DNA from: Kiritimatiellia bacterium
GTDB taxonomy: Bacteria > Verrucomicrobiota > Kiritimatiellia > RFP12 > UBA1067
NCBI GenBank assembly: GCA_027858965.1
Contig: JAQIBS010000167.1
Location: 62,001 to 126,000 of the forward strand
Direction of reading: 5' to 3'
DNA: 64,000 bases
Below are positions 58,741 through 64,000 of the stretch, piece after piece (the stretch's first letter is position 1; each line of letters starts with the position of its first letter). Below the pieces are notes generated by a model. That model had not been told where the DNA came from and searched no databases. It saw nothing but the letters and a program-made list of their open reading frames with translations. The position numbers and the translations under genes are program-made.

Positions 58741-60657
58741 TCACTTCAGTTCAAGATTGTACGGAATTTCAATTCTATATTTCTGGTTGATTTTGAGCAT
58801 CTCGGCAAAAGTCTGCTGATGCGGTTTGATGGAGTACTCACCTACAAGATAAAACATCTTCTGTCTGGCCCAATGTTGCTTCAGAAGAGCTGAGCCCGGT
58901 TTTGCATACTGTTTTATGTTCAGTCTGAATATAGAGTCATACCCCTTACCAGCGGCAAGTCCACGCACCTGCAAAACAAGTTCCTCTGTCCCATCAGGAC
59001 AAATACCTGTTAATTCAAGCTGTTGATCTTTGTAGAGATTGCATGTGCTACGAGGATATATTTCACTGTGAGAGGCAGAGTCAAACACAACTGATATATC
59101 ACCCAAAACCGGATTACGAATGCCATTATAAACAGTTGCCATTGACTTAGGAATATCCCATCGGTTACCATTTAGAATATAGGCTTTACCACGGTTGCAA
59201 TATGTCAGCATATCCAACAGGTAATCGTTGGCCTTCTTATGTGTGCCATACATATAGACCGACATCAATCCGCTGTTCAACTCAGAAAAGGCACCAATGA
59301 TATTTGCGCTGCCGGTTAAACCAATGGTCGGTTTCCCATCGGTAACCACAAAGGCAATCATAGGACGCATAGGGTCGCGTTCAAGTTTCATTACGGAACT
59401 CAGAGAACCAAAGACATCAGTCTGGCCAAAGGAACGCATGTTAGAGATAAAACTCATTGCTTTCTTACAGTTCTCCGGCGTTACGGCAATCCACCCAGGA
59501 AAACATCTCTCAAATGTATCGCGGAAGCCAATAACATTAAAGCGGTCCGAAGAATTCATAGTTGATATGGCAGAGATCAGAGCCTTACGACAGAAGCTAA
59601 GACGCTCCTCAGTCATAGACCCGGAGACATCCTGAATCCAGAGAATATCCTTGGCAATAACCGAAACCGGTTTATCAGGCCGTGGTTGAATTCCAATCCG
59701 GAAATAAAGTTTACCTGGCTCCTTAGGATCACGATAAGTTTCCAGACCAATGGCCAACAGATCATCAATGGAACTATATTCAACATTCTGTTCGATAGCC
59801 TCAATTTTTTCACGCACTTTTTTTGTCAGTTTTTCTTCAACTGTAGCTGGAGGCAGAGAGGGCGCTGCGGCAGGAGGTTTCGGTTTAATAATTCCGGGTT
59901 TTCCCTTATCGGAACTAACGCGTTTATCACCGGGTTTATCTGCAAATTTATTCTTTGTTGCAGCTCCGGTAGCGCCTTCAGGAACTGAGGGGGCGGCAAT
60001 CGCAGGTTTAACAAAAGTTCCTTTAACAATCTCCGTATCAAAAACTTCCGCAGCTTTAAGCGGCTTCGGTGGTTCAAGATTTTTGCCGAATTTCCGTCCA
60101 GCCAGATCAATTGAAGGAACAATATCCGGTGCATCCTGAATACGCTCTATCATTGGGATTTCACGACGCGGAAGGGCGGCAACCTCATCCTGTACAGTAC
60201 GATCAAAGATCTGATTTATCTCCTGACGCGGCATCCAGGGAGTTGTGTCAACATTCTCAACACTGGTTTCATTCAAATCGGGAACCCCGGGAGAGAGAGC
60301 CTCACGCGGAATAGGAGGTGGTGCTGTTAAAGCAGGGCTGGCTTCCTGAAAGAGCGACTCAACCCGGTCACTGACCTCAATAGGGCCACGACTGGGAGTA
60401 TCGCGTTCACCGGGCACCTTATCCATAATACGCATAGGATCAGTACTGAGAGTGTCAACCCGCATCGGCGGCACTTTATCCGGCATCATCCACTCACGGG
60501 TCCTCTGCGTAACCCGCGTTAACCCGCCAAAGTTCCAGTCACCACAAAAATAAATAAACACCACATGAATACAAATGGAGAACAAAATTGCCATTCCCGC
60601 CAATGCCCAGTGATGGTCGCTCTGCTGGCGACGATAATCGAATCCATTTGGAATCAT
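58741..60657 (-). CDS. Membrane-anchored proline-rich vWA protein, TonB/TolA-like build
   Basis: A 638-residue protein. One membrane helix near the N-terminus (ALAGMAILFSICIHVVFIYF, 19-38) follows a short cytoplasmic stretch. A long Pro/Glu/Lys-rich region (about 60-275, with IKPKPPAAAPSLPPA) can span the periplasm, a coiled part (TVEEKLTKKVREKIEAIEQ) follows, and a von Willebrand A domain begins near 335 with the MIDAS motif DVSGSM (343-348). The C-terminus is a beta domain. It is the fourth gene in a run with exbB/tolQ, exbD/tolR and a TPR gene, where TonB or TolA would be expected. The topology agrees, but no TonB C-terminal domain is present; a vWA domain takes its place. It probably couples proton flow to a protein in the envelope. 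The 154-bp gap before it contains a C10 tract. Confidence 0.82.
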   Translation of the reverse strand: MIPNGFDYRRQQSDHHWALAGMAILFSICIHVVFIYFCGDWNFGGLTRVTQRTREWMMPDKVPPMRVDTLSTDPMRIMDKVPGERDTPSRGPIEVSDRVESLFQEASPALTAPPPIPREALSPGVPDLNETSVENVDTTPWMPRQEINQIFDRTVQDEVAALPRREIPMIERIQDAPDIVPSIDLAGRKFGKNLEPPKPLKAAEVFDTEIVKGTFVKPAIAAPSVPEGATGAATKNKFADKPGDKRVSSDKGKPGIIKPKPPAAAPSLPPATVEEKLTKKVREKIEAIEQNVEYSSIDDLLAIGLETYRDPKEPGKLYFRIGIQPRPDKPVSVIAKDILWIQDVSGSMTEERLSFCRKALISAISTMNSSDRFNVIGFRDTFERCFPGWIAVTPENCKKAMSFISNMRSFGQTDVFGSLSSVMKLERDPMRPMIAFVVTDGKPTIGLTGSANIIGAFSELNSGLMSVYMYGTHKKANDYLLDMLTYCNRGKAYILNGNRWDIPKSMATVYNGIRNPVLGDISVVFDSASHSEIYPRSTCNLYKDQQLELTGICPDGTEELVLQVRGLAAGKGYDSIFRLNIKQYAKPGSALLKQHWARQKMFYLVGEYSIKPHQQTFAEMLKINQKYRIEIPYNLELK

Positions 60658-60691
60658 ACGTTACCCATCCTCCCCAGTACAAAACCGAGGT

Positions 60692-60720
60692 TCAATATCC
60701 AATATTCAATATTCAAATCC
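60692..60720. repeat. AATATTCAATATT word repeat
   Basis: AATATCCAATATTCAATATTC with variants (TTCAAATCCAAAATTC), a low-complexity word repeat of 9-11 bp periodicity in the gap between the TPR and vWA genes. Confidence 0.7.
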
Positions 60721-60775
60721 AAAATTCCCATTCGGTTCAGAAAACCGATTTTAAAATAATTTCCATGGCACATTG

Positions 60776-60785
60776 CCCCCCCCCC
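60776..60785. repeat. Homopolymer C10
   Basis: Ten C on the + strand (ten G on the coding strand) 27 bp after the TPR gene stop and 119 bp before the vWA start. Such tracts are prone to slippage in replication and in sequencing. Confidence 0.9.
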
Positions 60786-60811
60786 ACACAATTCACAGCA
60801 ATGGTCAGGCC

Positions 60812-63139
60812 TCACGCAGCCATTTTCATCGCCCGCGCCGAGCTAGGATAACGTTGTTTCAACTCTTCACGCATCTTATCAGCCTCAGCTCCCCGCCCCT
60901 GTTTATCCAGTAGCTGCGCGGCCTTGCTGAGTGCTTCAGGCACAAGTTCTTTATGATCAAACAAAATTCCAACACTGATATAATAGCGAATTGCTGATTC
61001 CAGATCCCCCTTCAGCTCAGCGTTACGTGCAAGACCGGAGTAGGCTCTGGCACGCATGCCCAACATCTCCGGAGTAGAGGACCGGCTGGCGGCATCAATC
61101 AAACTTTTCTCAGCCTCATCATAACGACCGGAGTCGGTCAGCAGCTCCCCCAGACGCAAAGCTGCCTCAGCACCATACTCAGTGGTTGCACCAGTGGCAA
61201 CGGCCTGTTGAAAAGCATAGATAGCCGGATCACGTTCGCCTTTATCACGATGAACACGCCCTAAGATTGTCCAGGCGGTTTGCACCCACCCCTTATCCGG
61301 TTTCATTTTTATAAGAACATAAGAAGCTTTGGATGCTGACTCATACTGCTTGTTACGATGCTGGAATTCCGCCAGCCAGGCCAGCTTATCCTCACCCAGT
61401 TTTTCAGAGACATTTGAATCCAACAGTTTATTAAAGAGCTGAGCTGCCTCATCCCCTTTATTAATCGACTGCAGAAGCAAGCCCAGTTCAAGAGTACACT
61501 CCCGTTCAAACTCTTTTGATGGCTGCGCCGTCAGTGATGCCCTGAACATTTTCTCAGCCTCAACAACATCGTTCAACTCACGATAGATGGTTCCGCGCCA
61601 GTAAAAGATCTCGGCTTGATGCGAATCATCAGGAAAACGTTTGTACAATTCATTAAGCGTTGAACCGGCTGCTCTAGATTGTTTGGTACGAATCTCCTCC
61701 ATCGCCTTTTGATAAAGAGTTTCTGCGACCAGCTTGCTTTCAGGGTATTTTGTTAAAAGAGCGGTCCAGTCACGCAGAGCAGCCTCACTTTGATTCAAGC
61801 GGGTCAGGCAGACACCTGAGGCGTAAAGTGCCGTTGCCGCCAGCGGGTCAGCGGGGTAGGTTTTTGCCACCTTAAGGAACCAGGCCGAAGCCTCCTCCCA
61901 CGCATCCTGCTTTTGCAGCATCCAGCCCAGGCGATAAAGGGCATCTTTCGCCAGCGGACTCTTCGGATATTTTTCAACCAAAGTCCGACAGCTCTGAATA
62001 ACAGCCTCTGACTGATCTGTTTTCAGAGCAGCCTCCGCTTTCATCCATAAAACATTATCCATCAATTCATCACCAGGATTTACAAACGCGGCAATTGCAA
62101 CCAATGTCTCTTTATATTTTCCGGTACGATAAAGAGTTGTTAATTTTTCATAGTGCGCCTTTTGTGCCAGACGACCGTTAGGGGCAAGTTGAAGTTGCTG
62201 ATCATAAAATTGTACCGCGGCATCATTCTGGCTCAGCTCTCTGAGACAGTTTGCCTTTACATAGAGAACCTCTTCTCTCAACGGATGACTTTGATCGTCA
62301 ATGATCAAATCAAGAACTTCAGAGCCCTCCTGATATCGACCACTGTAAAAACAGGCCCATGCTGCAGTCAAGGCCCCCTCTTTAATACGGGCCGATGCAG
62401 GATACTTTGTGCGCAGCATTTTAAACAGATCAGCACTCTCCTCAAACTTCTCCGATATCAATGAGACCTGCGCAGCAAAATAACAGGCTTCCTCTGCAAC
62501 TTTACTATCCTTGGAGTCATAAGCCAGTTCAAGATAAACACCCAAAGCTCGACGTTTATCCTCCTTTTTATCACTCTGACTCAAGATCCAGGCAGAGCGT
62601 AATGCGGAGTAAACTCCATATTCCGTGTCTGCAAAATCTTTCCGCAGAATTTCATAGCAAAGCAATGCCTCGGTGGGTCTTTTAAGTTTTTCAAGGACCT
62701 CACCTTTATGATAGAGAGCAGCCGAACGCACCTCAGGTGCCTGTCCCGCTTTAGTAAGAGGGTCCAGAACTTTAACAGCCTCTTCAAGCGATGCACCGCC
62801 AAGCTCAATCAGAATCAAGGCTCGCTGCAATTGCGCCCGTGGAACCTGTGAACTATCGGGACAGATCTCAGTGAGTTTTTTATAGACTGCCTCAGCCTCA
62901 TTCTGCTTACCAAGCCTGCGGTAACACTCAGCTAAACGGAATAAAACCGAATCACGTTCCGTAACCTGCGGATTGGCAGCCAGAACCTGATACTCACGCG
63001 CAGCCAAATCAAACATGCTTCTTCTGAACAGACCGTCTGCAAGTTGCAACCTGTCATTAACTATAACAGGGTCAGCTTGCACACCCAGTGCTGCAGCCAT
63101 AAACAGGGCCACGCATAATATATTAACCGAACACCTCAT
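60812..63139 (-). CDS. Exported TPR-repeat protein of the ExbBD-linked operon
   Basis: A 775-residue periplasmic protein (signal peptide 1-22, ending VQADP) made almost entirely of tetratricopeptide-like helical pairs with A-x-Y-x-x-L words: FRRSMFDLAAREYQVLAANP, RLAECYRRLGKQNEAEAVYK and LYHKGEVLEKLKRPTEALLC are examples (about 16 or more repeats). Such scaffolds bind partner proteins or peptidoglycan; CpoB/YbgF of the Tol-Pal system is a much shorter relative in function. It starts at the base after the exbD stop, so translation is coupled, and it is followed by the vWA gene. A role as scaffold of the energised complex is likely. Confidence 0.85.
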   Translation of the reverse strand: MRCSVNILCVALFMAAALGVQADPVIVNDRLQLADGLFRRSMFDLAAREYQVLAANPQVTERDSVLFRLAECYRRLGKQNEAEAVYKKLTEICPDSSQVPRAQLQRALILIELGGASLEEAVKVLDPLTKAGQAPEVRSAALYHKGEVLEKLKRPTEALLCYEILRKDFADTEYGVYSALRSAWILSQSDKKEDKRRALGVYLELAYDSKDSKVAEEACYFAAQVSLISEKFEESADLFKMLRTKYPASARIKEGALTAAWACFYSGRYQEGSEVLDLIIDDQSHPLREEVLYVKANCLRELSQNDAAVQFYDQQLQLAPNGRLAQKAHYEKLTTLYRTGKYKETLVAIAAFVNPGDELMDNVLWMKAEAALKTDQSEAVIQSCRTLVEKYPKSPLAKDALYRLGWMLQKQDAWEEASAWFLKVAKTYPADPLAATALYASGVCLTRLNQSEAALRDWTALLTKYPESKLVAETLYQKAMEEIRTKQSRAAGSTLNELYKRFPDDSHQAEIFYWRGTIYRELNDVVEAEKMFRASLTAQPSKEFERECTLELGLLLQSINKGDEAAQLFNKLLDSNVSEKLGEDKLAWLAEFQHRNKQYESASKASYVLIKMKPDKGWVQTAWTILGRVHRDKGERDPAIYAFQQAVATGATTEYGAEAALRLGELLTDSGRYDEAEKSLIDAASRSSTPEMLGMRARAYSGLARNAELKGDLESAIRYYISVGILFDHKELVPEALSKAAQLLDKQGRGAEADKMREELKQRYPSSARAMKMAA

Positions 63140-63574
63140 CTACTCTCCGTTTTTGGCATCTTCTTTGACCTCACTTGTGGCCATTGAAAAATTCCAGATA
63201 TCGGCCTTGCGGCAGGTGTCAATAACCTTAATCAGATCCTCATACTGAGTTGCTTTGTCAGCACGAAGAACCACCGGCTGGCCAGGAAAATAACGAGCCA
63301 GACGATCAAGACGTCCCTTGAGCGCATCCAATGTTAAATCCTGTTGGTTGACAGAAACCCTGCCATCCTGAGAAATATTGATAATAATCTCACCCGGCAG
63401 ACGGTCTGGAACCTTACCACTCTCAGCTGAAGGCAGAGTGATATCAATCTCATATTCCCACTGCGAAAACACCGAAGTTGTGATGAAAAAGCAGAGTAGC
63501 AAAAAGACAATATCCATCATTGCCGTCATTTGGAAGGTGGGCAGGTCGCCTTTGTTATTCTTCCTGAAATTCAT
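63140..63574 (-). CDS. exbD: ExbD/TolR-family proton-channel subunit
   Basis: A 144-residue protein with one N-terminal membrane helix containing the conserved aspartate, D21 in MTAMMDIVFLLLCFF. The periplasmic domain follows with EIIINISQDGRVSVNQQDL and VVLRADKATQYEDLIKVIDT, the usual ExbD/TolR pattern. With ExbB/TolQ it forms the proton-driven motor of the inner membrane. The start overlaps the exbB stop (ATGA at 63571-63574) and the next gene begins immediately after its stop. Confidence 0.93.
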   Translation of the reverse strand: MNFRKNNKGDLPTFQMTAMMDIVFLLLCFFITTSVFSQWEYEIDITLPSAESGKVPDRLPGEIIINISQDGRVSVNQQDLTLDALKGRLDRLARYFPGQPVVLRADKATQYEDLIKVIDTCRKADIWNFSMATSEVKEDAKNGE

Positions 63575-64000
63575 GCTTCTTCTTCCTTCTCAGAGATATC
63601 CATTTGTGAATTCATGCCAATGATAGAGATCATAACCTCTGAAGTGGCCGCTTCCAGATTAGAGATCTGACGGCTTGCACGCCGACGGAACCAAGCGTAG
63701 AAGGCCATACAGGGAATTGCCACTATCAATCCAAAAATTGTTGTGACAATTGCCTGAGAAACACCGGCAGCCAAAACTACCGGTTTGGCACTGGCAACAT
63801 CACTGGCTACCGAGCTGAAGGCCTTCAGCATACCAAGAACTGTTCCCAGCAAACCCAGCAAAGGAGCAATAGTGGCAACATCCAGCAGCAGCTGGGTCTG
63901 TCCCTGAATAGACTCCGCCTGTCGCGCACCCTCAGCCTCAGCCGCACTGCGCAGCAGATGCACATCGCACTCCGGCACATTCCGCATGCAATCCAGTGAA
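63571..64000 (-). CDS. exbB: ExbB/TolQ-family motor subunit, 5' end outside window
   Basis: The frame is open to the right edge (codons before the ATG at 63987 read SLDC), so the N-terminus is missing. The visible part has the two C-terminal membrane helices: LLLDVATIAPLLGLLGTVLG, then MLKAFSSVA, and GVSQAIVTTIFGLIVAIPCM with AFYAWFRRR next. APLLGLLGTVLGM is the conserved TolQ/ExbB core. The partner ExbD follows with a 4-bp overlap. It is the first gene of the visible run. Confidence 0.92.
   Translation of the reverse strand, partial: SLDCMRNVPECDVHLLRSAAEAEGARQAESIQGQTQLLLDVATIAPLLGLLGTVLGMLKAFSSVASDVASAKPVVLAAGVSQAIVTTIFGLIVAIPCMAFYAWFRRRASRQISNLEAATSEVMISIIGMNSQMDISEKEEEA

Follow-up and report, generated by a model that had tools for sequence, protein, structure and literature searches.

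Gene organization of the locus

At the right end of the window (the whole 64,000-nucleotide stretch of DNA analyzed here) we identified four genes, all on the minus strand and transcribed in the order exbB, exbD, TPR, vWA. The source genome is available as a draft of 5.9 Mb with 92% completeness.

63571..64000, minus strand: exbB/tolQ-like proton-channel gene, C-terminal 142 aa (PF01618, E=5e-27 for the in-window part)
63140..63574, minus strand: exbD/tolR-like gene, 144 aa, with a single transmembrane (TM) segment and an Asp21 of the proton-binding type (PF02472, E=8e-30)
60812..63139, minus strand: TPR solenoid gene, 775 aa (PF07719 and other TPR models)
58741..60657, minus strand: gene for a TonB-like transducer with a vWA tip, 638 aa (PF13768, VWA_3, E=9e-11)

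The exbB gene passes the window end at position 64000. Followed beyond it, the ORF is complete at 262 aa (G000:C1:125571-126359, the same as L002:11572-12360), and the gene 5' of it is argH. A preliminary description of this DNA, made from the sequence alone, had the genes packed with overlaps or no gaps up to the TPR gene, which is exact: a 4-bp overlap joins exbB to exbD, the TPR gene follows exbD without any spacing, and only after the TPR gene is there a gap, of 154 bp. This last spacing measures 58 bp in a sister genome within the genus and is replaced by a 4-bp overlap in many relatives. A scan of the TPR-vWA region for promoters and terminators scored no better than shuffled sequences. 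No tonB or tolA gene, which would have spoken against the preliminary reading, adjoins the locus, including the region upstream of exbB beyond the window.

At least 20 relatives keep the four-gene order. Of the 60 nearest genomes, 56 have a match to the vWA protein (hereafter the arm), a few of these being weak, generic vWA matches. A chance arrangement is thus excluded. Those sequence relatives that carry names are metagenome-assembled genomes (MAGs) of Kiritimatiellae, Verrucomicrobia, and Lentisphaerae, the best of which has 77% identity across the entire vWA protein. Two public MAG records titled Akkermansia muciniphila (L127, L129) also hold a Kiritimatiellae-like vWA arm or operon, and their names are probably wrong.

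The vWA arm

The AlphaFold2 model of the vWA protein consists of a TM helix (residues 15–38), a disordered stretch (58–268), and a folded region (approximately 270–638) made up of the vWA domain and a beta domain. This bears out the TonB/TolA layout that had been proposed for the protein. Three conserved features stand out along its length:

60565..60579, minus strand: codons of S27-I-C-I-H31, the S-x3-H pair in the TM helix (invariant in the 20-row alignment A1)
60103..60240, minus strand: linker block of about 45 residues, 140–185 (PWMPRQEI..LPRREIP..ER..APDIVPS..DL; invariant columns of A2)
59338..59631, minus strand: codons 343–440, containing the MIDAS residues D343, S345, S347, T413, and D440 (invariant or nearly so in homologues)

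An S/H pair in the TM helix is the docking pair used by TonB and TolA. In a regular-expression search, S-x3-H lies within a hydrophobic segment in 73 of 81 vWA-arm homologues. The eight exceptions comprise two over-extended starts in which the motif is visible, one frameshifted and one truncated sequence, one paralogue without the helix, one gene broken into two ORFs, of which the upstream one carries the motif, and two true variants, T-x3-Y and T-x3-H, both f45 arms. The pair is also kept in vWA arms encoded far from any motor gene, and the helix contains no Asp. The idea of a dedicated proton motor with a vWA arm holds, and S-x3-H gives it a support in sequence that the preliminary description lacked. 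Judging from sequence, we consider coupling between the arm and the ExbB/ExbD motor likely.

The linker block is predicted by AlphaFold2 to be disordered, though its D178 is invariant in A1. It is possibly a binding segment for the TPR protein, another partner, or the motor. Nearer the membrane, the conserved VPPMRVE (62–68) is a candidate motor-box strand in a region that is predicted, with low confidence, to be disordered.

The tip scores 42.5 bits against VWA_3 (cut-off 27), and the conserved residues listed above confirm that the domain is MIDAS-bearing, as had been claimed. The folded tip resembles the vWA region of ITIH1 (Foldseek E=4.5e-22) and also archaeal ArnB/VWA2; a profile search likewise points to inter-alpha-trypsin inhibitor (ITI) heavy chains (H4, 6e-24). 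We searched the genome collection for the arm with an 8-row alignment. Apparent in-frame stops in some Verrucomicrobiota vWA genes proved to be terminal stops inside the profile match, and these ORFs are whole. A comparison with PHROGs, looking for a phage origin, gave no match for the vWA protein.

The TPR protein and ExbD

By eye, the N-terminus of the TPR protein resembles a signal peptide, and the protein is predicted to be periplasmic. Its AlphaFold2 model is all-helical with a mean pLDDT of 90. We do not read its score of 182 bits against YbgF/CpoB as a sign of orthology: the match is not specific because any TPR chain scores against such models, and another TPR protein of the same genome reaches 153.

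TPR and vWA domains are both protein-interaction modules, and vWA proteins are often chaperone-like or regulatory partners. The system might on these grounds be a sensor or regulator, in which a motor-coupled vWA protein reports the state of the envelope via the TPR protein and performs no mechanical work. However, the proton-binding Asp of ExbD (D21, invariant in 15/15 sequences) and the S-x3-H of the arm argue for energised coupling, and we regard a purely sensory role as unlikely.

Co-inheritance of the arm and an ExbD subtype

There are five ExbB and six ExbD matches in the source genome. The ExbD of the operon belongs to a clade of its own, apart from the other ExbDs of the genome (support 89/92); this broad split is all that we take from the tree, given its long branches and few columns. 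We searched for this ExbD subtype with a profile (A5) made from the operon's ExbD. Nearly every arm-bearing genome has one clearly separate A5 match, even where the arm is encoded on its own; for 25 genomes, the top match lies between E 1e-39 and 1e-76 and the second is no stronger than 1e-26.

Among the Kiritimatiellia genomes listed, 73 have both the ExbD subtype and the vWA arm, 19 have neither, and four are discordant (one with the arm only and three with the ExbD subtype only), so that the vWA gene does co-occur with this exbBD type, the absence of which would have counted against the preliminary description. Fisher's test gives p=5e-16, a value that assumes independent genomes, an assumption that does not hold here; the 19 genomes with neither sit in six families (f7, f9, f11, f16, f17, and f23), and six is for this reason the fairer count. 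Beyond the class, families with the arm (E<=1e-58) also have the ExbD subtype, apart from isolated exceptions in incomplete genomes.

The four genes occur in three arrangements. In the first, exbB-exbD-TPR-vWA stand together, as in the family and order of the window and sporadically in other families. In the second, exbB-exbD are alone, sometimes still behind argH, with TPR-vWA elsewhere. In the third, exbB-exbD-TPR are together and vWA is elsewhere, in several examples behind coaE and rho-like genes. ExbDs from all three arrangements fall in one clade, and splitting maps as a repeated event. The four parts are inherited as a unit even through the splitting of the operon.

This adds to published knowledge. 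Split operons, ExbD-arm co-inheritance, and S-x3-H in motor-distant arms do not appear in the text of the study that described such arms (Williams-Jones et al. 2025, Mol Biol Evol msaf138, PMC12204202). Support in the literature has so far consisted only of synteny and structure prediction, and co-inheritance is genetic evidence independent of gene adjacency.

Two further observations concern the split loci. In other Kiritimatiellia families (L171, L173, L175) the lone vWA gene often lies behind coaE and an ORF that looks, by eye, like rho. In genera with exbBD and TPR-vWA at separate loci, a multihaem cytochrome-c-like protein of 724–879 aa (Cytochrome_C7, c3) follows exbD in place of the TPR protein (L220:7667-10306, L221:3848-6022, L223:4315-6504).

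Arms with an OmpA-like tip

In genomes that have the ExbD subtype and lack the vWA arm, the TPR gene still adjoins exbBD. In seven genomes from two other Verrucomicrobiota families (G067, G098, G109, G126, G199, and G304; G131), exbB-exbD-TPR is followed directly by a different arm of 334–358 aa, consisting of a TM helix with S-x3-H, a Pro-rich linker, and an OmpA-like domain (PF00691, 1e-14). The ExbDs of these loci lie inside the clade of the operon's ExbD. The vWA arm is not listed for any of the seven in the arm profile scan, and none of the vWA-arm genomes tested has a full-length match to the OmpA-tipped arm. Other families have OmpA-domain proteins away from the motor, with the S-x3-H helix in six of the ORFs listed; since the others have A-x3-H or none, a link between these proteins and a motor of this ExbD subtype is only suggested.

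The replacement of a vWA tip by an OmpA-like one is an addition to published knowledge: OmpA-tipped arms are not mentioned in the text of Williams-Jones et al. (2025), and further literature searches yielded none.

We think it rather likely that exbB-exbD-TPR of this subtype forms a chassis shared across the phylum Verrucomicrobiota and serves as a third force-transducing motor beside Ton and Tol-Pal. On its S-x3-H arm one tip would exclude the other, with a MIDAS vWA domain in Kiritimatiellia and some sister groups and an OmpA-like, peptidoglycan-binding domain in other families. If so, the vWA tip would do the job of the peptidoglycan-binding tip by other chemistry. Pal, OmpA, and MotB all use the OmpA-like domain as their standard module for binding peptidoglycan. 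Its presence on the same chassis in place of vWA gives the best clue at hand to the target, and the OmpA-tipped relatives suggest the peptidoglycan layer more than the cell surface.

This bears on a motility or surface adhesion device, in which a vWA tip like that of myxobacterial CglB would grip a surface or a surface protein and be dragged by the motor. A vWA domain with a MIDAS is a classic adhesion fold, and a gliding-like role was suggested by Williams-Jones et al. (2025). However, no outer-membrane platform or gliding genes adjoin the locus, and the tip should stay periplasmic because the arm has an inner-membrane anchor and about 200 disordered residues. With an OmpA-like peptidoglycan-binding tip in its place in relatives, a device of this kind seems improbable to us.

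Ton and Tol genes elsewhere in the genome

A true exbB-exbD-tonB operon is present on contig C99 (TonB_C E=4e-20, the only PF03544 match in the genome), and two TonB-dependent receptor plug domains occur elsewhere. Contig C88 encodes TolB (1.6e-71) and two Pal-like lipoproteins in the order TolB-Pal-Pal, and TolQ/TolR-like genes lie at the end of contig C152. The vWA machine is additional to the Ton and Tol genes of the cell. The earlier proposal that it stands in place of TonB/TolA consequently applies to the operon and does not extend to the cell.

The ExbBD motor and the TonB-like TM helix and linker could also belong to an uptake system, that is, an alternative TonB energising an outer-membrane transporter, for example for polysaccharides. 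We consider this very improbable given that the arm has no TonB_C domain, that the genome has a true TonB with its own exbBD, and elsewhere two TonB-dependent receptor plugs, and that no receptor gene adjoins the operon.

Two other loci of the same genome resemble motor-driven systems. On the minus strand of contig C194 (L088:4808-12382, G000:C194:21807-29381) are genes for a TPR protein (1016 aa), a TPR-like protein (298 aa ORF), ExbB, two ExbDs, and a TM protein of 524 aa bearing squalene-cyclase-like repeats (PF13243, 1e-7); the last is another non-TonB candidate transducer, and the operon has no vWA gene. On the plus strand of contig C117 (L089:3499-9678 of G000), the order is TPR (831 aa), exbB, a divergent exbD, a 234-aa TM protein without a match in Pfam or NCBIfam, a BamB-like propeller, and an ABC ATPase. 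This operon looks like another motor-driven envelope system.

Proposed mechanism

The four genes probably encode a dedicated trans-envelope force machine whose likeliest job is work at the cell wall or outer membrane beside Ton and Tol-Pal. Gene order, domain layout, S-x3-H, the MIDAS, co-inheritance, and tip replacement are read directly from the sequences described above; docking, force, contact with the TPR protein, and a cell-wall role we infer from them. An ExbB/ExbD-type motor in the inner membrane would use proton flow. Like TonB and TolA, the vWA protein would dock on the ExbB-type subunit, using the face of its one TM helix that bears S-x3-H. The disordered, Pro-rich linker of about 200 residues would cross the periplasm, and the MIDAS vWA tip would grip a partner. 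This partner may be the TPR solenoid, or else a target that the solenoid holds at the peptidoglycan/outer-membrane layer. The contact between tip and partner would then be pulled on, or cycled, by proton flow. The job would be mechanical work at the interface of cell wall and outer membrane, in the manner of Tol-Pal and CpoB; this site is the likeliest because the same motor-TPR set bears an OmpA-like tip in other Verrucomicrobiota. That the machine works mechanically at the peptidoglycan/outer-membrane layer, with the TPR protein as partner or scaffold, is more speculative than coupling of the arm to the motor, and we see the chances as about even.

Should this proposal be right, Verrucomicrobiota have a third conserved proton-driven machine across the envelope, the job of which is now testable. 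One motor and scaffold naturally bear either an adhesion-type or a peptidoglycan-binding tip, a swap that would point to the cell-wall layer.

Comparison with known systems

Tichowtungia belongs to the Kiritimatiellota, the group of the window's source. It is the named case in a search for TolA/TonB-like proteins that found vWA force transducers in PVC bacteria (Williams-Jones et al. 2025, Fig. 4a-b). The published arm has a TM helix with an SHLS motif and a docking His, a Pro-rich linker, and a vWA C-terminal domain, and its gene adjoins genes for a TPR protein, a tolQ-like protein, and a pair of tolR-like proteins. Docking to the motor via the conserved His was modelled with AlphaFold 3, and the function was stated to be unknown. 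Our assignment of the window family to this kind rests on matching anatomy, synteny, and taxon: the TM-linker-vWA layout, the docking His, and the TPR and tolQ/tolR-like neighbours are the same. In contrast to the published pair of tolR-like genes, there is one exbD here and in all operons examined, and only the S and H of SHLS are conserved (both invariant in A1, unlike the L and last S positions). The gene set noted in the preliminary description is real and conserved; however, the kind of envelope machine proposed for it is not new, the predicted family having been published in 2025.

A second family in the same study, trans-pore-helix vWA proteins with tolQ and without tolR, likewise has a TM-anchored vWA domain and a tolQ-like motor. 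Here, however, there is an exbD with D21, and the vWA TM helix has S-x3-H rather than a proton-binding Asp. ITI heavy chains and marine sortase-target proteins (TIGR03788) share the vWA domain and the following beta-domain region. The arm reaches only 107 bits against the TIGR03788 cut-off of 552, has no VIT domain in Pfam, and is anchored by a TonB-like helix. Zorya defence was considered and rejected, since PADLOC gives a weak ZorA match for ExbB (2e-6) and none for the other three proteins.

The system is like TonB-ExbB-ExbD in its motor, its S-x3-H TM helix, and its disordered Pro-rich linker. It differs in having vWA instead of TonB_C (Pfam finds none in the vWA protein), in having no adjoining receptor gene, and in existing beside a separate, true Ton operon. 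Compared with Tol-Pal (TolQRA and CpoB), the operon is without the TolA C-terminal domain, TolB, and Pal, and homologues of TolB and Pal are encoded at another locus. The two are nonetheless alike in motor, TM arm, and periplasmic TPR partner, and the OmpA-like tip of the relatives recalls Pal.
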